Part shown: one piece after another, positions 9,418 to 18,385 of the stretch
How the letters are laid out: each line of letters begins with the position of its first letter
Position numbering within the stretch: position 1 is the first letter of the stretch
Virus record (IMG/VR): IMGVR_UViG_3300031576_000610
Coordinates: 1-21,720 of that record
Reading direction: 5' to 3' (one strand)
DNA from: a virus
Length of the DNA: 21,720 nt
Program-made: the position numbers and the translations under genes
Notes under the pieces: model-generated
The model's database searches: none
What the model saw: only the letters and a program-made list of their open reading frames with translations
What the model was told of the DNA's origin: nothing

Positions 9418-9526
9418 GGCGCCAAACCTGCCTGTTGACGATACGGAATACATGAGCCTGCGCGATTCCAAACCTCGTGGCGAGGCTTCCGAATGATTCG
9501 CCAGCGTACGGGGCGGCAAGGGTCAC
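9407..9526 (-). CDS. 39-aa stand-alone HTH protein
   Basis: A GTG start at 9526 overlaps the Rad50-like stop (GTGA). The whole product is essentially one helix-turn-helix: ESFGSLATRFGIAQAHVFRI followed by VNRQVWRHVE. The pattern (hydrophobic helix, A-xx-FGI, S/A-xx-V-xx-I, then WRHV) is what is usually found fused to phage HNH endonucleases or as a short RNA-polymerase-like HTH. Here it stands alone, without a catalytic domain. The methyltransferase start overlaps its last 11 bases. Confidence 0.65.
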   Translation of the reverse strand: MTLAAPYAGESFGSLATRFGIAQAHVFRIVNRQVWRHVE

Positions 9527-11430
9527 GCCGCCACCGCCTTCCGCCCCGGCGCCTCGACACAGGACCGTCCCTCCGCGTCGCGGGAGACGTAGAGGTAGCT
9601 CGCCCCCGCCGCGTTCCGCTCCGCCGCCAGCGCGACGAACTCCGCCGGGGTCTTGCCGGTGATCGTCTGGAGCACGAGCACCTGGTGGGGACACGCGGCG
9701 AGCACGCCGATCGCCGCCTGCCTGCTCCCCTGGTCCAGCCGGTCAAAGTCGTCGACGACGACGAGCCCGAGGCCGCAGGCGGACGCGACCGCGACCTGGA
9801 ACGCCAGGCCGAACCGGATCTGCTCCGAGCTGGAGAGCAACTGCGTCGGCAGGCCGTTCACGAGCGCGTCATCCTCGAGGGAGAGCAGCGGCGCCAGGTC
9901 GACCTTGAACCCCATCGGCTCGAGCTGGGCATTGACCGCCGCCTGGAACTCCTGGACGCCTCCCCCGCCGGCGAGGTCCTTGCGGATGCCGTCGGGGCCG
10001 AGCAGCTCGCACAGGCGATCGAGCGCGGCGTGCTCCGCCTCTAGCCTCCCTCGCGACTCCCCCGCCTGCTCGTAGGCGCGCACTGCCGCGGCGTGGCCGG
10101 TGAGCAGGTCCAGCCGGCTGCGGCCCTCGGTGATCCGGGTGGCGAGGGCGTCCACGTCGGCGGCCGGAGCCGCCTTCCCCTCGAGGGCGGCCAGCTCTGC
10201 GGCGGCCGCGGCCTGCTCAGCCTCCCCCTTGGAGATTTCCGACGCGATCTGAGCCCCGAGCGCCTCCCGCTCTTCCAGTTCAGAGAGCTGGCGCGAGAGC
10301 CCCGCAACGTCCGGCGTCGCCTGGAGAATCGACGCCGCGTCCGTCACCTGGTTGCGGGCCGCGGCGACCTCGGCATCCGCTGCCTTCGCCCGTTCCCGCG
10401 CGACCTCGATCTGCTTCTTCCGGGCCGCGGCGGACACCTTCGCCCCGCACTTCGGGCAGATTTCCGGGGCGTCCTCGAGGGCCGCGATCTCGGTGGCAGC
10501 CCGCTCGGCGTGCATGTCCGCTTTCAGGAGCCGCTGCTGCGCCTCACGGTGGGCCGTCTCCGCTGCGCCCCTCCCTTCCCCCGCCGCCGTGATCTGGTGG
10601 GAGAGGGAGAGCGCCCGCATCTTCACGTCTTCCTTCGGGAGCGCGGCGAGCTTCTCCCGCCAGCCGGCGAGCGCGCGGTCAATCCCGGCGAGCCGGTCCC
10701 TGATCCGTGCCGGCGCCGACTTGGCTTCCGCCTCCGCGCGCACGGCCTGGTAGCGCTGCTGCTCCAGCTCGGCGACCTTCCGCCGGATCGTGCTGGCCTG
10801 GCTCTCCATCGTCGCCAGGTCGAGGCCCTTCAGCTCCGCGGGGGGCTCTGGGGGCGGGGCCACGCCGATCATCTTGAGCGCCCGGCTGGCGTCGGTCCGC
10901 TTCGCGTACACGTCCCGGTAGAGCCGCTCCAGGTCGGGCAGCCCTACCGTCGCCTCCGTGGGCAGCATCTTGAGCCCCGCGCACAGCTCGCGGATCTCCG
11001 CCGGCAGGTCAATCGCCGTCGGCTTCGCCAGATCCAGGATCATCCGCTGCGCGTCCTTCCGCTCCAGCCGCAGCAGCTCGCCCGAGTAGAGGCAGGCGCG
11101 GATGACGGAGCCGGGCACGCCGAGCACCGCCTCGATCCGCTGCTGGACCGCGGCGCGCGGTCCCTCCCCCTCCTGGCGCACGAACGTCTCGGCGCCGGCG
11201 CGGAGTTGGACGGCCCATTTCTTCCGGTCGCCGTGGCGGCGCAGGTCCTCGTGGCCGCGGCCGGACTCGGAGCCGCGACAGGAGCCCGTAAGCGCCGTCG
11301 AGATCGCGTCGAGCAAGGTGGACTTCCCCACCGCGTTCAGGCCCCCGACGATGTTGAGCCCCGGCGCCAGGTCCACGTCCGCCGCGGCGTAGGACCGGAA
11401 ATTCCGCATGGACAGCTTGTCGATCTTCAT
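9523..11430 (-). CDS. Rad50/SbcC-like recombination ATPase
   Basis: 635 aa, ATG 11430 (ATGA overlap). N-terminus MKIDKLSMRNFRSY, Walker A GGLNAVGKS (29-37). A long coiled coil (about 205-475) is interrupted by a zinc hook CPKC (325-328) flanked by EIAALEDAPEI and SAAARKKQ. The ABC signature LLSSSEQIRFG is at 531-541, Walker B LVVVDDFD at 556-563, and the D-loop FDRLDQGSR at 562-570. Proteins of this class dimerise through the zinc hook, bind ends with a Mre11-type nuclease and process double-strand breaks (T4 gp46 is the phage prototype). The coiled coils are short, as expected for phage versions. No gp47/SbcD-like phosphoesterase is visible in this window. It lies in a recombination block with a YqaJ nuclease. 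Confidence 0.9.
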   Translation of the reverse strand: MKIDKLSMRNFRSYAAADVDLAPGLNIVGGLNAVGKSTLLDAISTALTGSCRGSESGRGHEDLRRHGDRKKWAVQLRAGAETFVRQEGEGPRAAVQQRIEAVLGVPGSVIRACLYSGELLRLERKDAQRMILDLAKPTAIDLPAEIRELCAGLKMLPTEATVGLPDLERLYRDVYAKRTDASRALKMIGVAPPPEPPAELKGLDLATMESQASTIRRKVAELEQQRYQAVRAEAEAKSAPARIRDRLAGIDRALAGWREKLAALPKEDVKMRALSLSHQITAAGEGRGAAETAHREAQQRLLKADMHAERAATEIAALEDAPEICPKCGAKVSAAARKKQIEVARERAKAADAEVAAARNQVTDAASILQATPDVAGLSRQLSELEEREALGAQIASEISKGEAEQAAAAAELAALEGKAAPAADVDALATRITEGRSRLDLLTGHAAAVRAYEQAGESRGRLEAEHAALDRLCELLGPDGIRKDLAGGGGVQEFQAAVNAQLEPMGFKVDLAPLLSLEDDALVNGLPTQLLSSSEQIRFGLAFQVAVASACGLGLVVVDDFDRLDQGSRQAAIGVLAACPHQVLVLQTITGKTPAEFVALAAERNAAGASYLYVSRDAEGRSCVEAPGRKAVAA

Positions 11431-11876
11431 GGCTCCCCCAGGACGCCACATGTCTGAGCGAGAGGCTCGCCGGTCTCTGGCCGTGGGATCAGCCGCGCGT
11501 CGAAGAACTGGACGAACTGCCGCGCGCGCGGGCGGTAGAACGCGGGGACATCCTCGATTCCCTTGACCCCGAAGGCAACGGCCATCGGGCAATTTTCCCA
11601 GGAGTGGCAATCCCACGCTGCCGCGACTTCCGCGAGCGGCTTCCCGCCCGCCATGCAGAGCACCGGGACCACGTCACGGATGTACTCCGCGAGCGTCTCC
11701 CCGGTATCGATCCCGGCGCCCCGAAGGTCGGCGCCCAGAAGATTGGCGTCCTGAAGGTCGGCGCCATGAAGGTCGGCGCGCTTCCCGACAGCCACTTGAA
11801 GCGCGACGCGCAGGCTGTCCGCTTCCGCCTCTAGGATCACGCTTCCGGTTACCCACGACTTGATCTCGATCTTCAT
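11427..11876 (-). CDS. Pentapeptide-repeat protein with unknown C-terminal domain
   Basis: 149 aa from ATG 11876, preceded by GAGGGGAG five bases upstream; a GTG two codons earlier is weaker. The N-terminal half is beta-rich and then has four tandem A(D/N)LxX repeats (ADLHG, ADLQD, ANLLG, ADLRG, residues about 36-55). The DNA repeats are visible at 11720-11780. The C-terminal half carries WDCHSWENCPMAVAFGVKG and FYRPRARQFVQFFDARLI. The conserved Cys/His/Trp and the W-x-N-C-P-M pattern suggest a small structured domain, not a disordered tail. Longer pentapeptide proteins mimic DNA or shield gyrase, but four repeats are too few to assume that. It is the first gene after a 12-bp gap and is coupled to the Rad50-like gene. 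Confidence 0.8.
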   Translation of the reverse strand: MKIEIKSWVTGSVILEAEADSLRVALQVAVGKRADLHGADLQDANLLGADLRGAGIDTGETLAEYIRDVVPVLCMAGGKPLAEVAAAWDCHSWENCPMAVAFGVKGIEDVPAFYRPRARQFVQFFDARLIPRPETGEPLAQTCGVLGEP

Positions 11877-11888
11877 GGGCACTCCCCT

Positions 11889-12932
11889 CTAGAAGTCCAC
11901 GAGCTGACGTTGCGCGGGAGACGCCGCGGCGGCTGGCTTCTCAGCATGGGTCAGGTGGTCATCGATCGAGTCCACGAACTCGGCGGTATCCGCCTCGATA
12001 TCCGCGCGGGACGGACCGGGGGCGGGCGGCTCCGGCTCCTTCCGTGCCGGCCGCTCCGCGGGTCGCAGGGTGTCGGCGAGCTGGTCGAGCTTCCCCTTGC
12101 CGGGTTCGGCCGCGAGCTTCCCCGGCGGGGGCAGTGCCGGCCCACCGAGCTCCGCATCGAGCGCAGCGCCGGCGTGCGGCATCAGGTCGTCGGGCGTCTC
12201 ATCCTTCGGCGCCTCGAGCAGCCCGAGCGCGCCCCCTCCCGCGGCCTTCAGCCGTCGCCCCATGCCGGCGAGTTGTTGCAGGCTCCCGCGGAACTCCAGG
12301 TCGAGGACGTAGACGGTCTTAGACTTCCCCTCCGGCTGGACCGTCATCGGCTTCAGCACGAGCGCGAAGGGGATCCCCGCCACCGTCCCGACCGCGCGAC
12401 GGATCGCCCTGGTGACGTTCAGCACGTTGACGATCGAGTTGAACGACGTCGTCGAGATTTCGTAGACGCCGAACTTCGGGACGGTCGGGAGCATGAATAG
12501 GAATCGCCCCAGGTCCTTGCAGAAGCCCCGCTCGCGGTACGGGCACTCGTCTCCAGGGCATGGCATCTCGAACATCTCGCCGTCCTCGCAGACCTGGCCG
12601 TGCTCCTTCAGGTAGGCGTTCCCCTGCTCGTCCTCCTTCACGTAGACGCGGGTCGCCGTCTCGCCGTCCGGGCAGGCGCAGAACAGCCCGCTCTTGCGGT
12701 ACGCCTTGCGCGCCGTCGGGAAGAACACCTCCTCGTCATCGGCGGGCAGCAGCACGGGGTACAGCTCCCGGCACTGCCCTGGGAATATGCCGCCGACCTC
12801 TGGCACGTCGACGAACGAAAAGTGGTCCAGCGCCTTCGGGTACTCCTTGCCGCCCTTGCTGATGCCCTTCTCCCCGAGACGGATCTTCCCGAGTCGCGGC
12901 AGGCGGTTGCGGGTGGTGACTCCTGGGATCAT
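11889..12932 (-). CDS. phiC31 Gp3-like (recombination directionality factor-like) protein
   Basis: 347 aa. The N-terminal 215 residues match, by eye, the Gp3-like family named for the phiC31 directionality factor: LPRLGKIRLGEKG (11-23), ALDHFSFVD, CRELYPVLLPADD, SGLFCACPDGE (81-91), a Cys-rich stretch (C115, C125, C130, C138 in CPGDECPYRERGFC), then FLFMLPTVPKFGVYEISTTS. The C-terminal third is disordered, Pro/Glu/Ala-rich and ends RQLVDF. phiC31 Gp3 makes serine integrase excise, and related proteins are also found in lytic recombination operons. Start ATG 12932 with GGGGG five bases upstream. It lies 10 bp after the YqaJ nuclease, so a recombination or DNA-binding role is as likely as integrase control. 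No integrase is in the window. Confidence 0.7.
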   Translation of the reverse strand: MIPGVTTRNRLPRLGKIRLGEKGISKGGKEYPKALDHFSFVDVPEVGGIFPGQCRELYPVLLPADDEEVFFPTARKAYRKSGLFCACPDGETATRVYVKEDEQGNAYLKEHGQVCEDGEMFEMPCPGDECPYRERGFCKDLGRFLFMLPTVPKFGVYEISTTSFNSIVNVLNVTRAIRRAVGTVAGIPFALVLKPMTVQPEGKSKTVYVLDLEFRGSLQQLAGMGRRLKAAGGGALGLLEAPKDETPDDLMPHAGAALDAELGGPALPPPGKLAAEPGKGKLDQLADTLRPAERPARKEPEPPAPGPSRADIEADTAEFVDSIDDHLTHAEKPAAAASPAQRQLVDF

Positions 12933-12941
12933 GGTGGCCCC

Positions 12942-13826
12942 CTACTTCCCGGACGCAGAACGCCGGAAGTCGCGGTACGACGTGGGCTCGACCGTGTAGC
13001 CCTTGCGCTGGGTGGTCTTGAAGCTGTAGACGACGCCCGTCGGGAGTTTCCCCCGCTCTGCCTGACCGATGGCGAACTTGAGCTTCGCCTCCGCCTCTTC
13101 CTTCAGCTCCGTGAACCGCTTGATCTCGGTCGCGGCCGCGAGCCGGTCTAGGTCCCACTGGATCGCCTCGTCTGGCAGGTCGACCGACTTCCCCTCGATC
13201 GCCTCGAAGATCCGGCCGATGACCTTCGCGTCTGCGGCGACGGGGTCGGGGGGTGTGTCGTCGGTGACGTGCCGCCAGAAGTCCTCGGCGCGCAGCAGCC
13301 AGCCGTCGATCAGGTCCTGATTCAGCTCGAGGTCCTGATACTTGAACTCCAGCCCACCAATCAGGCCCGCGACGCTCCCCCACTTCCGGCCGGTGACCAG
13401 GAGGTAGTGCTGGAGCTGTACTTGCGCCGCGAGCGGGGCCTCGTCTTCCCAGGCCCGCGACATGAAGGCGTTCGCGGACTTCGCCTCCAGGACGCCGAGG
13501 TCCTCCGGGTCGCGCTCCGGGTCGACGATCAGCCGGTCGATGTGGCCCACTAGGTAGAGGATCGTCGGGTGGACGAAATGCTTCGTCTCGATCAGGACGC
13601 TGCGTCCCGTCTCTTCGGCGTACTCCTCGGAGACGACGGGCTCCAGCCGTCGCCCCCGGCGGAGGTAGGTATTGTCGGGGGCGTCGGTGGCGCGGCCGGT
13701 CTTTTCCGCCCACACCTGCAGCGCCGTCCGGTTGCCCGGGTTCGGCAGGCCGAGGATCGGGGCGACATCGGAGCCGCCGATCCCGCTGCGTCGTTCGTCG
13801 TGGAACTCCTTCGCGTGTGCCCCCAT
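12942..13826 (-). CDS. YqaJ-type viral recombinase / lambda-exonuclease-like nuclease
   Basis: 294 aa. SGIGGSDVAPILGL (14-27), RRGRRLEPVV with E62, the metal-binding D97 in VGHIDRLI, VLEAKSA with E114-x-K116, and QVQLQHYLLV (135-144). This is the ordered core of a PD-(D/E)XK nuclease of the YqaJ/lambda exonuclease family, including the IGGSD signature. The enzyme resects 5' ends to make single strands for annealing during phage recombination. The C-terminal 60 residues are helical, then KTTQRKGYTV. Start ATG 13826 with SD AAGGAG seven bases upstream. A single-strand annealing partner (RecT/Erf) is not obvious; the Gp3-like gene sits where one is often found. Confidence 0.92.
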   Translation of the reverse strand: MGAHAKEFHDERRSGIGGSDVAPILGLPNPGNRTALQVWAEKTGRATDAPDNTYLRRGRRLEPVVSEEYAEETGRSVLIETKHFVHPTILYLVGHIDRLIVDPERDPEDLGVLEAKSANAFMSRAWEDEAPLAAQVQLQHYLLVTGRKWGSVAGLIGGLEFKYQDLELNQDLIDGWLLRAEDFWRHVTDDTPPDPVAADAKVIGRIFEAIEGKSVDLPDEAIQWDLDRLAAATEIKRFTELKEEAEAKLKFAIGQAERGKLPTGVVYSFKTTQRKGYTVEPTSYRDFRRSASGK

Positions 13827-13851
13827 CGGTTGACTCCTTCGGCCCGCCGTG

Positions 13852-14220
13852 CTACGGTCGGGGCTCTTGTGGTTGCTCTACCGGCCGCGACCCGTTGCGA
13901 GCGGGCGCGGCCAAGTTGTCTCGCTCGGCCATTCCGAGCAGCGCGCACTGACAGCCACGCATCGCATCGTCGATCTGCTCCTGGACCTCTCGGATGATCC
14001 CGGCGAAGTCGCCCTCGTCATTTGCCTCCAGGCGGAACGCCGCGCGCAGCAGTTCCACAGCCTCGCTCAGCTTGACCGCCGCCGTGCCCACGAGCGCCCG
14101 CCGCGAGTCGATCCCTACCGTCCCGCCGCCCACGAGCTGCGCGAGCTTGCGGTCGGCATGGCTCGGAAGCGCGGAGGAGTCCGCCACGTCGCGGGCGTCC
14201 TGGTGGACGCTGGCGCTCAC
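13852..14220 (-). CDS. Hypothetical helical protein
   Basis: 122 aa from GTG 14220 (GTGA overlap). The central part is strongly helical (AAVKLSEAVELLRAAFRLEA and FAGIIREVQEQIDDAMRGCQ). The tail is Pro/Arg-rich (ARNGSRPVEQPQEPRP). It shows no membrane segment or known motif. It stands upstream of the YqaJ nuclease by 25 bp and in the same transcript, which suggests a recombination accessory or unknown early function. No family recognised. Confidence 0.6.
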   Translation of the reverse strand: MSASVHQDARDVADSSALPSHADRKLAQLVGGGTVGIDSRRALVGTAAVKLSEAVELLRAAFRLEANDEGDFAGIIREVQEQIDDAMRGCQCALLGMAERDNLAAPARNGSRPVEQPQEPRP

Positions 14221-14366
14221 TTGCCGGCCTCGATCTTCGCCATGAGCGCCGCCTTGATCTGGCTCAGGACGTAGGACAGCGGCCCGCAGGCGCCGACGAT
14301 CCGCTGCCCGTCCAGATGCCCGACCCAGGCACGCCCGTCCTTCTCGACCACGACCTCGAATCTCAT
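14217..14366 (-). CDS. 49-aa hypothetical protein
   Basis: Starts ATG 14366 with a GGAGG SD nine bases upstream and overlaps the preceding stop by ATGA. The frame extends further upstream but only as a shadow of the preceding gene. MRFEVVVEKDGRAWVGHLDG looks like a beta hairpin with a helical C-terminus (LSYVLSQIKAALMAKIEAGK). A small compact domain is likely; the role is unknown. Confidence 0.65.
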   Translation of the reverse strand: MRFEVVVEKDGRAWVGHLDGQRIVGACGPLSYVLSQIKAALMAKIEAGK

Positions 14367-14545
14367 CTCGCTCCCTCCTTCTTCGCGCGGAACGGCACGA
14401 CCGTCCCGCAGTGACACTCCTTCACGGTCGCGGGCCGAAGGCTCCGGCAGACCTCGCAACGGATCACCTCTTCGATTCGCATCCCGACGCGACGAAACAG
14501 CTTCCCGCCCTCGGACCAGACTCGGCGCGGCCTACGGGCGTGCAT
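14363..14545 (-). CDS. 60-aa zinc-ribbon protein
   Basis: ATG 14545 is preceded by AGGGGGAAG. Basic N-terminus (MHARRPRRVWSEGGKLFRRV), then CEVCRSLRPATVKECHCG: C-x2-C and C-x-C, a mini zinc ribbon. The tail is basic (PFRAKKEGAR). It is the first gene downstream of the structured, gene-poor stretch and is coupled to the next gene. A nucleic-acid-binding role is plausible; nothing more specific can be said. Confidence 0.65.
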   Translation of the reverse strand: MHARRPRRVWSEGGKLFRRVGMRIEEVIRCEVCRSLRPATVKECHCGTVVPFRAKKEGAR

Positions 14546-14822
14546 CAGCTTCCCCCTACTCGGTGACGGGCCGGCCTCTCCGGCGAAGGAGTGCCGGCCC
14601 GCCAGCCGTCACGCCCGGCGGCTAACCGACGCAATCCCCAGCGCGAGGGCGCAAAGGTAGCGAACCGCCGGTCCTACACGCCGGGGAACGGCCCCGGTAG
14701 CCGTGCGCTTGGCAGGCGCATGAGGTTCGGAGGCGGGCCAGCTATCCCCTGCGAACGCGGCCGCGCCCCGGTCGAACTGCCAGTTACCGCCTCCGAATGT
14801 CGGACGCTCCACAGAGCTGCTA
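14546..14822. other. Highly structured 277-bp gene-free stretch
   Basis: No convincing gene is seen. Four consecutive helices fill most of it: 14563-14567/14608-14612 enclosing 14568-14575/14593-14600 (8 bp, all G-C), 14615-14621/14665-14671 (7 bp), 14681-14686/14692-14697 (6 bp) and 14726-14736/14787-14797 (11 bp, perfect). The features are symmetric, so the strand of any RNA cannot be told from pairing, but the transcript runs on the minus strand. No T-tract follows any of the hairpins, so a simple terminator is unlikely. Confidence 0.55.
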
Positions 14823-14960
14823 TCACCGGATCTTCGTCTTGCCGTGGTAGCACTTGCCCTTGGCAGTGCATTGGCCGGTGCGGGTATGTCCCACGCGGCC
14901 CTTGATCTTCGCCTTGTTCTGCGGGCCAAACTTGATCACTTTCACGCGCTGATTTGCCAT
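14823..14960 (-). CDS. 45-aa basic peptide
   Basis: ATG 14960 follows AAGGAGG at five bases (an ATG one codon earlier has too short a spacer). The product, MANQRVKVIKFGPQNKAKIK then TGQCTAKGKCYHGKTKIR, is Lys-rich with C-x5-C. Base use is less GC-rich than neighbouring genes. It is the only plausible gene in about 1 kb of structured DNA. It could bind RNA or DNA, perhaps the structured RNA that flanks it, but that is speculation. Confidence 0.55.
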   Translation of the reverse strand: MANQRVKVIKFGPQNKAKIKGRVGHTRTGQCTAKGKCYHGKTKIR

Positions 14961-15578
14961 CATGTCCTCCTTGTGTCGAACGCCCCAGATTGTGAACCGT
15001 GGGCCGGATTCCCCACCCGGCCCCATGTCCGACTAGACCCTTCAGGACTCCACGCCGATCCCGTTCGACATTCGGCAGTCGGTAGCTTTAAGGCTTCGGG
15101 ATACGGCTGGCCGCAGTCCACAACAGCGGCTCCGTCTACCCGGCTCTGCCACGCCGCCACGGTTCACAGACTGCAACGCTCGCACGCTCTGAAGGGCAGA
15201 CCGAAAGGTCACTGAGTCGAGGCCCAGGCCCGACCGTTCACCCCGCGATTCTCGATCTCCGCTAGCGGAGTTCATACGGGCGCTGGCGAGTGGTCTGGAC
15301 TTCTTGCCAGCGTGTTCCGCGAATCGTCGGCCTGCCCATCACAACGTCCGAACGCTCCGAAGGACAGTAGAGACGGAGCGCAGTTGAGGCCCGGTCGCTC
15401 CTCAGCAAGCAAGGCCAACTATGGTTTGCATCTCTACTGCCAATCGCAACGTCGGGGCGGCGGCTGGCGAGAGCGATCGACAGCAGCTCGCTACGTAGAC
15501 ACGCCCTCCTTTGCCTCTCTCCACGTGCGGACGTGGCCTCGGCCACTGGCCGCGAAGTAGATGCCGCCGCCCCGCAAC
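14961..15578. other. 618-bp gene-free, hairpin-rich region
   Basis: Open frames here look like random translation and lack SD sites. Visible elements: hairpins 15001-15007/15017-15023 (7 bp), 15110-15114/15126-15130 (5 bp), 15199-15202/15207-15210 (4 bp, loop gaaa) and 15281-15287/15306-15312 (7 bp). There is also a perfect 14-bp palindrome at 15257-15270, the palindrome ctacgtag at 15491-15498 and a 6-bp hairpin at 15521-15536. Two imperfect 25-bp direct repeats lie at 15171 and 15339. No rho-independent terminator or good promoter was found. Confidence 0.6.
15171..15404 (+). repeat. Two imperfect direct repeats in the gene-free region
   Basis: 15171-15195 and 15339-15363 share 18 of 25 bases, including the blocks caac, cacg/aacg, ctc and gaagg. 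They are followed by similar gaggccc-containing tails about 20-35 bases later. A related stretch (gaatgtcggacgctcc) starts at 14794. In both main copies a 4-bp helix can form (GTCC/GGAC against GCTC/GGGC). Confidence 0.55.
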
Positions 15579-15839
15579 TCACTTAGCTCGCGCCTCTACG
15601 ATTGCCTGTAGAGACTCCACATCTATCTCTGGTCTCCCGCCAACTCGCTTGAGAAATGGCAAGTTGATACCCTTACTGCGATAGTGCCGTGCCCGGGAAC
15701 CCACCGCGCCCGGTAAGAGCCCGAGGGATGCCGCCAGCTCTTTTTTCGTTTTCTTCTGCTGATGGGCATCCATGTACGCCCGGACGAACTCCTCCGGCGA
15801 TATGATGCGCGACACTTGCTTCTTTGCTGCGATCGTCAT
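15579..15839 (-). CDS. Small HTH regulatory protein
   Basis: 86 aa from ATG 15839 (AAGGA seven bases upstream; an ATG six codons earlier is also possible). After RIISPEEFVRAYMDAHQQKK comes TKKELAASLGLLPGAVGSRA, a helix-turn-helix of the resolvase/transposase type in which a kxELAxxLGL helix precedes a recognition helix. Residues 52-70 are basic (RHYRSKGINLPFLKRVGG). A small DNA-binding regulator of the early region is likely. Being the last gene before the structured noncoding stretch, it could act on sites there. Confidence 0.7.
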   Translation of the reverse strand: MTIAAKKQVSRIISPEEFVRAYMDAHQQKKTKKELAASLGLLPGAVGSRARHYRSKGINLPFLKRVGGRPEIDVESLQAIVEARAK

Positions 15840-15862
15840 TGCTCCATCCTTAGACATTCTGA

Positions 15863-16276
15863 TTATCCCAGGTTCGCCGCGACATGGATCGTCGCCCCCT
15901 CGCGCAGCCACGCTAAGGCCGCGTCGTACTCCACCGTCCCGCCATCGCAGTCGAGCGGGCAATCGCGCTCGCTCGTGCGCGGGTCGCCCCACGGGCAGCG
16001 CACGAGATCGGGGTCCACGCCGGTCCCGCCACAGGCATCGCAGCGGTAGACCTCGGCGAAAAACCTGAGGTCGCGCGCATCGCCGACCTCGCAAGCACCA
16101 CCACACTCCCGGCAGTCCGTGCCCCACTCCGGGCCGGAGAGGGGGCGGGTGGCCGGGGCCAGCGCGTCGAGGTCCGCGCCGGTGTCCTCCCCGGCCTGCG
16201 TCTTTGCTGACTCTGGGTGATCGGTAGGCTGGTCGCGCTCCTCTGGCGCGGGCAGGAACGGCGAACCTACGCTCAT
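15863..16276 (-). CDS. Cys-rich zinc-binding protein
   Basis: 137 aa from ATG 16276 (ATGA overlap). A disordered acidic N-terminus (1-50) leads to CRECGGAC (55-62), then YRCDACGGTG (78-86), CPWGDPR near 94 and CPLDC (106-110). The CxxCGG and CxxCGGTG repeats resemble the DnaJ-type zinc centre, but only two copies are recognisable. It could be a stand-alone zinc domain or a chaperone-like adaptor. The C-terminus is short and partly hydrophobic. The function is unknown. Confidence 0.65.
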   Translation of the reverse strand: MSVGSPFLPAPEERDQPTDHPESAKTQAGEDTGADLDALAPATRPLSGPEWGTDCRECGGACEVGDARDLRFFAEVYRCDACGGTGVDPDLVRCPWGDPRTSERDCPLDCDGGTVEYDAALAWLREGATIHVAANLG

Positions 16277-16440
16277 CTTTCCGTCTCCCGGCGCTCCCGC
16301 GCCTCCGCTTCCAGCCGCTCGGCCTCGGCGGCACGGCCGCACAGCCGGGCGCGACAGGCGTTGCACGCAGCCCCCGGCACTTGCACTCGCGTCTCCCGGC
16401 AGATGCGGCAGCGGATGACCGGGACGGTATCGGCGCTCAC
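16273..16440 (-). CDS. 55-aa Cys-rich protein
   Basis: GTG 16440 forms a GTGA overlap with the previous stop. CRICRETRVQVPGAACNACR forms C-x2-C...C-x2-C, a zinc ribbon in about 20 residues. A charged helix follows (AAEAERLEAEARERRETER). Fusion of a mini zinc ribbon to a single helix is typical of phage early proteins with no assigned function. Confidence 0.65.
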   Translation of the reverse strand: MSADTVPVIRCRICRETRVQVPGAACNACRARLCGRAAEAERLEAEARERRETER

Positions 16441-16643
16441 CGGCAGAACCGCTGGACCATGTAGGCCGCGGCGAGCGGATACTCCGGCCAGCACGTCGGC
16501 GCCTCGTCTGCCGCCTCCAGCGCCGCGCGGACCTCCCGGGATTGCATGTAGGCGTCATGGAGCAGCTGCCCCCTCTCGTGCGCGTCGGTCGCGCCGAGCA
16601 GGTGCGACATGATGCTGTCGAGCGCGCGAATCGCGGTCCTCAT
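16437..16643 (-). CDS. 68-aa hypothetical protein
   Basis: ATG 16643 has GAGGAGG eight bases upstream and an ATGA overlap. Mostly helical (MRTAIRALDSIMSHLLGATD and HDAYMQSREVRAALEAADEA), ending PLAAAYMVQRFCR. No known motif. It probably forms a small helical bundle. Confidence 0.6.
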   Translation of the reverse strand: MRTAIRALDSIMSHLLGATDAHERGQLLHDAYMQSREVRAALEAADEAPTCWPEYPLAAAYMVQRFCR

Positions 16644-16882
16644 TGTCCCGCCCTCCTCACGTCCCGCGCCCGGACCCACTCGTGGGAACCGTCAGGGCGA
16701 CGGATCTGGATCATCGGCAGCGGCGCAATCGATCCGCTGGCTAGAAACTCTCCCGCGACTTGCCCCAGCGTCCGGTCGTCATGGACCGCGCCTGTCGCAT
16801 CGAATCCCACCGCGATCCCACCCCGCACCGGCACGCCCTCGGCGCTATCTGCGATCTTACGGATCAGTCGGTCAGCGTCCAC
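16640..16882 (-). CDS. 80-aa hypothetical protein
   Basis: GTG 16882 is supported by GGAGG six bases upstream, despite an 11-bp overlap with the previous gene. MDADRLIRKIADSAEGVPVR, then GGIAVGFDATGAVHDDRTLG and IQIRRPDGSHEWVRARDVRR: a helix plus a small beta-rich domain. The end is basic. No family is recognised. Confidence 0.6.
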   Translation of the reverse strand: MDADRLIRKIADSAEGVPVRGGIAVGFDATGAVHDDRTLGQVAGEFLASGSIAPLPMIQIRRPDGSHEWVRARDVRRAGQ

Positions 16883-16991
16883 GTCCCACCTCCATATCCC
16901 GCAGCCAGGCGTCGGCGCACAGCGCGAGCAGCCAGCCGCAGGTCGCGACGATCAATAGTTCGTGCGCCAGCCAGAGCTCCGGCTCGGTCAT
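16872..16991 (-). CDS. 39-aa membrane peptide
   Basis: ATG 16991 with GGAGG five bases upstream, two bases after the previous stop. After MTEPELW there is one hydrophobic stretch (LLIVATCGWLLALCADAWL) followed by RDMEVGRGR, so a single membrane span with a positive C-terminus. It could be a small host-directed or superinfection protein, as often found early in phages. No family is recognised. Confidence 0.55.
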   Translation of the reverse strand: MTEPELWLAHELLIVATCGWLLALCADAWLRDMEVGRGR

Positions 16992-16993
16992 GC

Positions 16994-17281
16994 CTACCTC
17001 CCGGCGTCGCGGAGAGCGGACGCAGCGTCCACCCCCAGCGGGGAATCCGTGGACTCGAAGTACGCGGCTGTCCGCTCCGCGACGCGCAGCAGACCGAGCG
17101 CCCCATCCGCCAGCGCGACATCCGCGGTGGTGAGGGCGGAGAGGGCGGCCAACAGTTCCCCGCCCGGGCACTCGCACTCCCCCACGATGCTCCCCGCGCT
17201 GTCGCATCCCGGGGAGTGGCGCATCGCCGCCACCGCTCGCTCGCCCGCCTCCACCAACCGCGCCACCTTTTCACCGCTCAT
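16994..17281 (-). CDS. 95-aa hypothetical protein
   Basis: ATG 17281 with AAGGAG five bases upstream and ATGA overlap with the regulator stop. Helical N-terminus (MSGEKVARLVEAGERAVAAM), then a Cys-containing segment (HSPGCDSAGSIVGECECPGG), then helices (ELLAALSALTTADVALADGA). The three cysteines are not in a canonical zinc pattern. Second gene of the early transcript. No family is recognised. Confidence 0.6.
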   Translation of the reverse strand: MSGEKVARLVEAGERAVAAMRHSPGCDSAGSIVGECECPGGELLAALSALTTADVALADGALGLLRVAERTAAYFESTDSPLGVDAASALRDAGR

Positions 17282-17490
17282 GCCGTCTCCTTTCGCGCCC
17301 GACTCTCGGCGTTTGTGATGATCCGCTCCCACTCCCGGAGCATGGCCTTGCGGATCTTCGTCCCCGGGCGCCCCGCCTCCCACTTCCAGAGCGTCGCCCG
17401 TGAAACCTCCAGCGCCGCGGCTACGGCCTCGGCGGATAGCCCGAGCCGCTCCCGGCGAACCTTCAGGGTTGCTACCGTCTCAGCAATCAT
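17278..17490 (-). CDS. Cro/C1-type (XRE) transcriptional regulator
   Basis: 70 aa. LKVRRERLGLSAEAVAAALE then VSRATLWKWEAGRPGTKIRK is a textbook XRE helix-turn-helix (19-40) with the W-x-W-E-xGR signature. A short helix follows (MLREWERIITNAES). Small regulators of this size act as Cro or C1 dimers on operators near their own promoters. The ATG at 17490 has no SD: 5' of it only CCCCGC separates it from the -10. The mRNA therefore probably starts at or within a base or two of the ATG, a leaderless transcript like lambda cI from PRM. First gene of the early operon. Confidence 0.85.
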   Translation of the reverse strand: MIAETVATLKVRRERLGLSAEAVAAALEVSRATLWKWEAGRPGTKIRKAMLREWERIITNAESRARKETA

Positions 17491-17496
17491 GCGGGG

Positions 17497-17525
17497 AGAA
17501 TACGGCGAGTCGTGCGCGATGTCAA
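17497..17525 (-). promoter_or_regulatory. Near-consensus sigma70-type promoter for the early operon
   Basis: TTGACA (17525-17520), a 17-base spacer and TATTCT (17502-17497). The -35 is perfect and the -10 has four of six consensus bases. The start would be near 17490, the A of the regulator ATG. The spacer contains CGACTCG (an odd-centred palindrome), a possible operator half-site pair for the regulator, but that is a guess. Confidence 0.8.
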
Positions 17526-17568
17526 GAAAAAAAACGAGAAAAAGACAATTCCGCGCCCGTCGCGGGAT
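17525..17568 (-). terminator. Rho-independent terminator of the lysis operon
   Basis: In RNA sense, ATCCCGCG (17568-17561), loop ACGGG, CGCGGAAT (17555-17548): eight pairs with one G-U. Then follows a T-rich stretch of about 20 bases ending in eight T (17546-17525). It ends the lysis transcript 150 bases after the last stop, and its T-tract directly joins the -35 of the early promoter. The rest of the gap (17569-17719) has no convincing gene. Confidence 0.85.
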
Positions 17569-17719
17569 TTCAGCAAGATCGTCCAGGAGGCGTTTTCTTG
17601 GTGCGGCAGGGTTTACCCCCGGCGCGGCAGGCCCGGACGGTCATGTAGGCCACCCCGCGCGAAGGGACCTCGGCCTCCCACTCGGCCCATGTCGCGGTGG
17701 ACGGCCATTGCCGTAGGTG

Positions 17720-18385
17720 TCACCACTCCCACGAGACGCGGGCGAGGATCGCCGTGGTCTCCGGGAGCGCCAGCACGTCGCCGCCGATCCAGTCCGGGAG
17801 GATGGCCTGGCCCGCTCGCGTCCGCCATGACAGCCGGCGGGAGTAGCCGGCCAGCCAGCCCACACCGTCCGCGGTCAGCGCGGCGCCGAGGTCCAGCCGG
17901 TTCAGCGGCAACGCCGGTACGGCGAACGCCCCCTCGACGCTGACGGCTTCGCTGGCCTCAAGGTCCAGCGGCGCGTGAGCCAGCTCGGTCCACGCCTCCC
18001 CAAGCCGGATCTCGCAGGTCGCCCAGCCACGCCAGCCCCGGACTGCCAGTCCGCCCTCTACGCCGGCGAGCTGCTCCGCCTCGACGCGGACGCGGGCCTC
18101 GGGTGGCGGCCCCGTCTCGGCCTGGCGCACGACCTCGCGGATGACCTCGACGGGGACCTCGACCCTCTCCGTCTGCCAGCGGACCAGCTCGACGATGCGC
18201 GGCGCGCCGGGCACCGGCACCTCGACCCGCTCGACCTCCCGGACGCGGACCACCTTCGCCGGCAGTGGAACCTCAATCGTCTCCGGTCGGGTGAGCGCGC
18301 GGGCGATGAAGAAGCCGCCGATCGCTGCGGCGACGATGCCGGCGGCCACCGCGAGGAAGCGCGGAGAGATGTAGCGACCGATCAC
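17720..18385 (-). CDS. N-terminally anchored membrane protein with VEVPV repeats
   Basis: 221 aa from GTG 18385 (GTGA overlap). The N-terminal FLAVAAGIVAAAIGGFFIAR spans the membrane once. It is followed by a 60-residue region with repeated (V/I)EVP(V/L) motifs (IEVPLP, VEVPVP, VEVPVE) that could form an extended periplasmic stalk. The C-terminal 100 residues look beta-rich (alternating hydrophobic strands, ending ILARVSWEW). A final Trp after an aromatic-hydrophobic strand is typical of outer-membrane-like barrels. In a lysis cassette such a protein could act like a spanin, reaching across the periplasm, if the host is Gram-negative. That role is inference. Confidence 0.65.
   Translation of the reverse strand: MIGRYISPRFLAVAAGIVAAAIGGFFIARALTRPETIEVPLPAKVVRVREVERVEVPVPGAPRIVELVRWQTERVEVPVEVIREVVRQAETGPPPEARVRVEAEQLAGVEGGLAVRGWRGWATCEIRLGEAWTELAHAPLDLEASEAVSVEGAFAVPALPLNRLDLGAALTADGVGWLAGYSRRLSWRTRAGQAILPDWIGGDVLALPETTAILARVSWEW

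Follow-up and report, generated by a model that had tools for sequence, protein, structure and literature searches.

A candidate structured RNA of about 600 nt with three repeated arms in the early operon of an IMG/VR virus

The window analysed is an entire IMG/VR-type virus record of 21,720 bases, which may be a fragment. Its recognisable genes (portal, terminase, replication, RecE and a helix-turn-helix gene) are all on the minus strand, and ARAGORN detects neither a tRNA nor a tmRNA in its 21.7 kb. The initial annotation had described about 1 kb of it, 14546-15578, as nearly gene-free and as a candidate large structured RNA. Coding status was scored by codon log-odds, which are positive for real genes and negative for the candidate ORFs tested. 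By this measure the larger ORFs across both gaps look noncoding, at -0.22 to -0.32 per codon and with flat GC1/2/3, and the 615 nt of 14964-15578 are noncoding. The small ORF between the gaps, 14826-14963, is strongly coding and is called ORF46 here. Genes neighbouring the element are all on its strand. Within 13800-18000 a single sigma-70-type promoter-like site was found, upstream of the RNA at 17525-17497 (-), with 10 of 12 matches; it is located just upstream of the helix-turn-helix gene and could start the early operon. Since neither a T-tract terminator nor an own promoter was found close to the RNA, a separate transcript is not indicated. The features of the region are the following:

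14976-15578 (-), candidate structured RNA, about 600 nt, four arms; noncoding, with folding z-score and ensemble entropy and diversity as evidence
15453-15578 (-), arm D1, branched; z -3.98, 0/300 shuffles; from fold and pair probabilities
15352-15452 (-), arm D2, 101 nt; base ACGUU-G.G-CGA/UCG-U.U-U.C-long helix; z -4.37, 0/300 shuffles
15348-15351 (-), linker UCGG, 4 nt, between D2 and D3
15184-15347 (-), arm D3, 164 nt; base ACGUU-G.G-UGA/UCA-U.U-long helix; z -3.68, 0/300 shuffles
15180-15183 (-), linker GCGA, 4 nt, between D3 and D4
14980-15179 (-), arm D4, 200 nt; base GCGUU-G.G-CAG/CUG-U.U-C.A-long helix; z -3.11, 1/300 shuffles
14976-14979 (-), UCGA after D4, which resembles both linkers
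14966-14972 (-), Shine-Dalgarno sequence AAGGAGG of ORF46, placed by its position relative to the ATG at 14963-14961
14826-14963 (-), ORF46, basic protein of 46 aa including the first Met; codon score +0.55 per codon
14546-14822 (-), second noncoding segment, hairpin-rich; its excess stability is marginal, and it is not counted in the RNA

For the minus strand of 14964-15578 the folding energy is -308.9 kcal/mol, compared with a mean of about -270 for dinucleotide shuffles. This corresponds to z between -5.1 and -5.7 (-5.64 with 20 shuffles; -5.11 with 100, none of them as good). Ensemble entropy and diversity are lower than in all 100 of 100 shuffles, and the segment ranks first among the 66 tiles of 615 nt taken from both strands of the window, with a runner-up at -3.5. 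This second most stable tile, 11274-11888 (+), about -3.5 with a fixed sd, is on the strand opposite to the genes and covers the end of ORF 11427-11882, neighbour of 9523-11442. The plus strand of 14964-15578 shows z -2.59, or -2.7 in the tiling, and the stability excess of the whole segment is -37 kcal/mol on the minus versus -17 on the plus strand. The fold contains 226 pairs, 27 of which are G-U pairs, lost on the opposite strand. Each of the four arms is significant when folded alone on the minus strand; D3 and D4 are also significant on the plus strand. The minus strand of 14546-14822 shows only marginal values, z -2.1 (4/200) and z -2.23 (8/300), so the signal is in the 615-nt segment and not spread evenly over 1 kb. 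Similarity between the two noncoding segments is not above chance.

The four helices named in the initial annotation are all present and perfect: GGGCCGGC at 14568/14593, TTCGGAGGCGG at 14726/14787, CGCTGGC at 15281/15306 and the 14-bp palindrome CTCCGCTAGCGGAG at 15257-15270. The palindrome alone is unremarkable, as the window has four perfect 14-nt palindromes. The comparison with shuffles gives clear excess stability to 14964-15578, but only a marginal excess to 14546-14822. The large structured RNA proposed there gains support from folding energy, ensemble definition and internal covariation, but is narrowed to about 600 nt, 14976-15578 (-), a segment that very probably encodes a structured RNA.

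Arm D1 shows a perfect closing helix of 12 bp, made of G+C only, between 15574-15563 and 15453-15464, which is an inverted repeat at the DNA level. It lacks the base motif of the other arms and directly abuts D2. Arm D3 bears the palindromic hairpin 15257-15270, with loop CUAG. In each of three sequence contexts, the mean pair probability of the base helices of D2, D3 and D4 is within 0.79-0.99. Two further pairings were discarded. One is a weak helix, GUUG/CGAC, that would close the whole RNA; it occurs in the minimum-energy structure when the segment is folded by itself and is gone when flanks are included. The other is a 14-nt long-range complementarity, 14793-14806/15062-15075, with a pair probability of at most 0.19.

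Arms D2, D3 and D4 start with RCGUUG and finish with GRGCGU, and their first 21 positions align gap-free and in register. Their bases have common features: RCGUU (positions 1-5, paired), a G.G mispair at position 6 in three of three arms, 3 bp (7-9), a U.U mispair at position 10 in three of three, one variable position (11; U.C, G-C or C.A) and a long helix of at least 10 bp (12-21, paired). The 18 pair columns of the three arms form 54 cells, all of which contain standard pairs. Two-sided changes between arms occur in 12 of the 18 columns, against a shuffle mean of 4.1 and with no shuffle of 500 reaching as many; this is covariation within one molecule. It rests on three repeats and on an alignment guided by the fold, as no homologue was found. 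Full pairing within arms is partly built in, because the arms were found via the fold; the matching places of the mispairs, the uniform linker length and the sequence common to the arms are not built in by this route. Sliding the register by 1-3 columns destroys the pairing, and each 5' strand finds its best partner in the 3' strand of its own arm, with 18-19 of 21 positions paired versus 10-15 when 5' and 3' strands are swapped between arms. A 26-nt direct repeat among the arms exceeds those in 200 of 200 shuffles.

Used as a descriptor, the base finds exactly D2, D3 and D4 on the minus strand of the window, nothing on the plus strand and nothing in six whole-window shuffles. Scanned over both strands of 1.2 Mb from other loci, it gives only three isolated matches at 17/18. 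A possible fourth base at 14625-14697 was rejected, since its 15/18 is a level common by chance. Most simply, to judge from these sequences, D2-D4 would be diverged copies of a single ancestral arm, and the simplest reading of their differences is that selection kept pairing and mispairs in the copies while sequence drifted.

The RNA element ends 4 nt before the Shine-Dalgarno sequence of ORF46. The protein is lysine-rich and shows a C-x5-C-x-H stretch; no relative was found in Pfam, PHROG or IMG/VR, and its structure model is of low confidence (mean pLDDT 70). Because of this composition and its place as the next gene downstream, ORF46 is the natural candidate for a protein partner and possibly binds the RNA.

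No homologue of the RNA was found in the IMG/VR, phage, plasmid and GTDB collections with the scans used. Direct nucleotide searches of the phage and plasmid collections gave no match to the region, and motif scans of IMG/VR and GTDB genomes gave chance matches only, lacking the arms. RecE, the 86-aa protein, the terminase and ORF46, used as protein queries, retrieved no close relative from IMG/VR; protein matches in phage records show only about 23-40% identity, and the Gp3-like protein gave no matches. The terminase profile retrieved at least 80 loci, with at most 34% identity among the matches listed, and these listed loci have almost no further genes in common with this virus. The best of these listed loci (L025/L118, with terminase and RecE) has 44% GC, crude gene calls and nothing usable upstream of RecE. 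This absence of relatives is weak evidence, as very near records may be missing from the collections scanned. Strong folds of other loci (L009/L017 and L196/L161/L150) were set aside, being located at or in genes resembling phage structural genes. L196, L161 and L150 contain an identical stretch (around 750-1250 of L196) that ends a capsid-like gene and shows a strong fold, with a rough z of -5 to -7.6 from 7 shuffles, in coding sequence. At the start of an opposite-strand gene beside likely structural genes, L017:7794-8193 and L009 fold strongly (z about -5 to -7) and contain a 15-bp inverted repeat; this fold is unrelated to the RNA of arms D1-D4.

To our knowledge, only few phage RNAs so large and ornate are known. 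The initial annotation had pointed to GOLLD and ROOL as precedents and to covariance models of these and of tmRNA-like RNAs; these comparisons gave no Rfam match and no tmRNA. At gathering thresholds no Rfam family matched in the whole window, and under relaxed conditions (E up to 5) over 14300-16000 GOLLD, ROOL, OLE, HEARO, raiA and tmRNA were all absent. GOLLD is described as a large, ornate, noncoding RNA of phages and prophages, with many members over 800 nt and with its function open (PMC12286853). The candidate RNA is also large, ornate, noncoding and phage-encoded, but it shows neither a covariance-model match nor a nearby tRNA, and its three repeated arms, with bases marked by G.G and U.U, are a distinct layout. 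ROOL, described in the same source as highly structured and without known protein partner (PMC12286853), is of about the same size class, and the candidate RNA shares with it the phage setting and the high degree of structure, but not a covariance-model match or a tRNA island. Both GOLLD and ROOL assemble as cages of RNA, and tRNA islands are frequently found in their vicinity (PMC12286853); such islands are not obligatory, and none is present in this possibly fragmentary record. The resemblance of the candidate RNA to GOLLD and ROOL is one of size and setting only. OLE RNA, which acts together with proteins (PMC12054373), is likewise ornate and of about 600 nt, but it is a bacterial chromosomal RNA of Bacillota, and its model does not match here. 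Although size and phage setting are alike, a diverged relative from GOLLD, ROOL or some other large RNA family already described is the least probable of all the explanations considered, given the lack of an Rfam match at either setting and of any tRNA in the record. The layout of three homologous arms with mispair-marked bases was not found described in the literature, which was screened mostly by title and abstract.

The strongest competing reading is that the sequence acts in cis, as a long leader of the early mRNA with a role in translation control of ORF46, in protection or processing of the transcript, or in antitermination. The end of the element 4 nt before the Shine-Dalgarno sequence, the same-strand neighbours and the promoter-like site upstream at 17525-17497 all agree with it, as does the gene upstream of the RNA, 15863-16297 (-), which weakly matches a Q-like antitermination family (phrog_6060, E 1.4e-5). 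This match, however, spans only residues 61-101 of the protein and may reflect a generic zinc finger. Forced junction hairpins between arms cost about 10-11 kcal/mol each, so the repeated arms are not simple switch alternatives. The put RNAs of phage HK022 are small antitermination RNAs, of tens of nucleotides with two hairpins, which are located within the early transcript and let RNA polymerase pass terminators. The candidate would also be a structured RNA within a phage early transcript, but it is about ten times larger and has three repeated arms; the phage leaders and put sites known to us are all far smaller than this element. An mRNA leader or antitermination element is rather unlikely, if less so than the other alternatives.

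A DNA element, that is a replication origin or a recombination or packaging site whose inverted repeats serve as hairpins or protein-binding sites, would account for the long inverted repeats, for the significant folding of D3 and D4 on both strands and for the RecE-like recombination gene and the Gp3-like gene downstream. Such DNA-level roles are improbable because the transcribed strand shows about double the stability excess of the other and G-U pairs are used; moreover, the arm descriptor is satisfied on that strand only, and two-sided changes that use G-U pairs are a mark of RNA selection. Functionless structure, by chance in GC-rich noncoding DNA or in a dead gene with duplications, would agree with the lack of homologues in the collections scanned. 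It is still harder to credit: no shuffle of 100 is as stable, the segment is at the top of 66 equally GC-rich tiles, three arms share identical mispair positions and compensatory changes, and decay would break pairs, yet none of the 54 cells is broken.

We take the element to be a new large RNA of the phage, encoded in the early operon immediately before ORF46, and the best overall explanation is probably an early-operon RNA of about 600 nt with four arms, D2-D4 being copies, and a scaffold role. That it acts as a free-standing scaffold, and not as a cis-acting leader, is slightly favoured. On this reading, the minus strand of 14976-15578 would be transcribed within the early transcription unit, and the presumably stable RNA would fold as a row of four long arms. 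The upper parts of the arm copies would have diverged, with the shared base and the exact 4-nt linkers retained. With G.G and U.U mispairs conserved in each, the three equivalent bases could be repeated docking sites for a protein, possibly ORF46, or for other copies of the same RNA. The mode of action would be broadly like that of GOLLD and ROOL, yet by a different RNA, set apart from them by its three homologous arms with mispair-marked bases. More tentatively, the RNA may represent an undescribed class of large phage RNA, arisen by tandem arm triplication, whose pseudo-symmetric bases organise binding of a basic protein or self-assembly of RNA or RNP early in infection. What GOLLD and ROOL do is not yet established, and an early-operon RNA of about 600 nt with three homologous arms, placed directly before the gene of a tiny basic protein, would offer a compact system in which to test what large phage RNAs do and how they grow by arm duplication. 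The repeated base is a precise descriptor for finding the class elsewhere.

Three small proteins around the RNA, 14363-14545, 14826-14963 and 15863-16297 (-), show cysteine patterns, one of them also with histidine, which suggest zinc binding. Further downstream, a Gp3-like protein (PF18897, annotated as recombination directionality factor-like) adjoins the RecE-like exonuclease, the pair being encoded at 11889-12932 and 12942-13826 (-). No RecT-type annealing protein was recognised beside this pair, and the Gp3-like protein may take its place in the recombination module.
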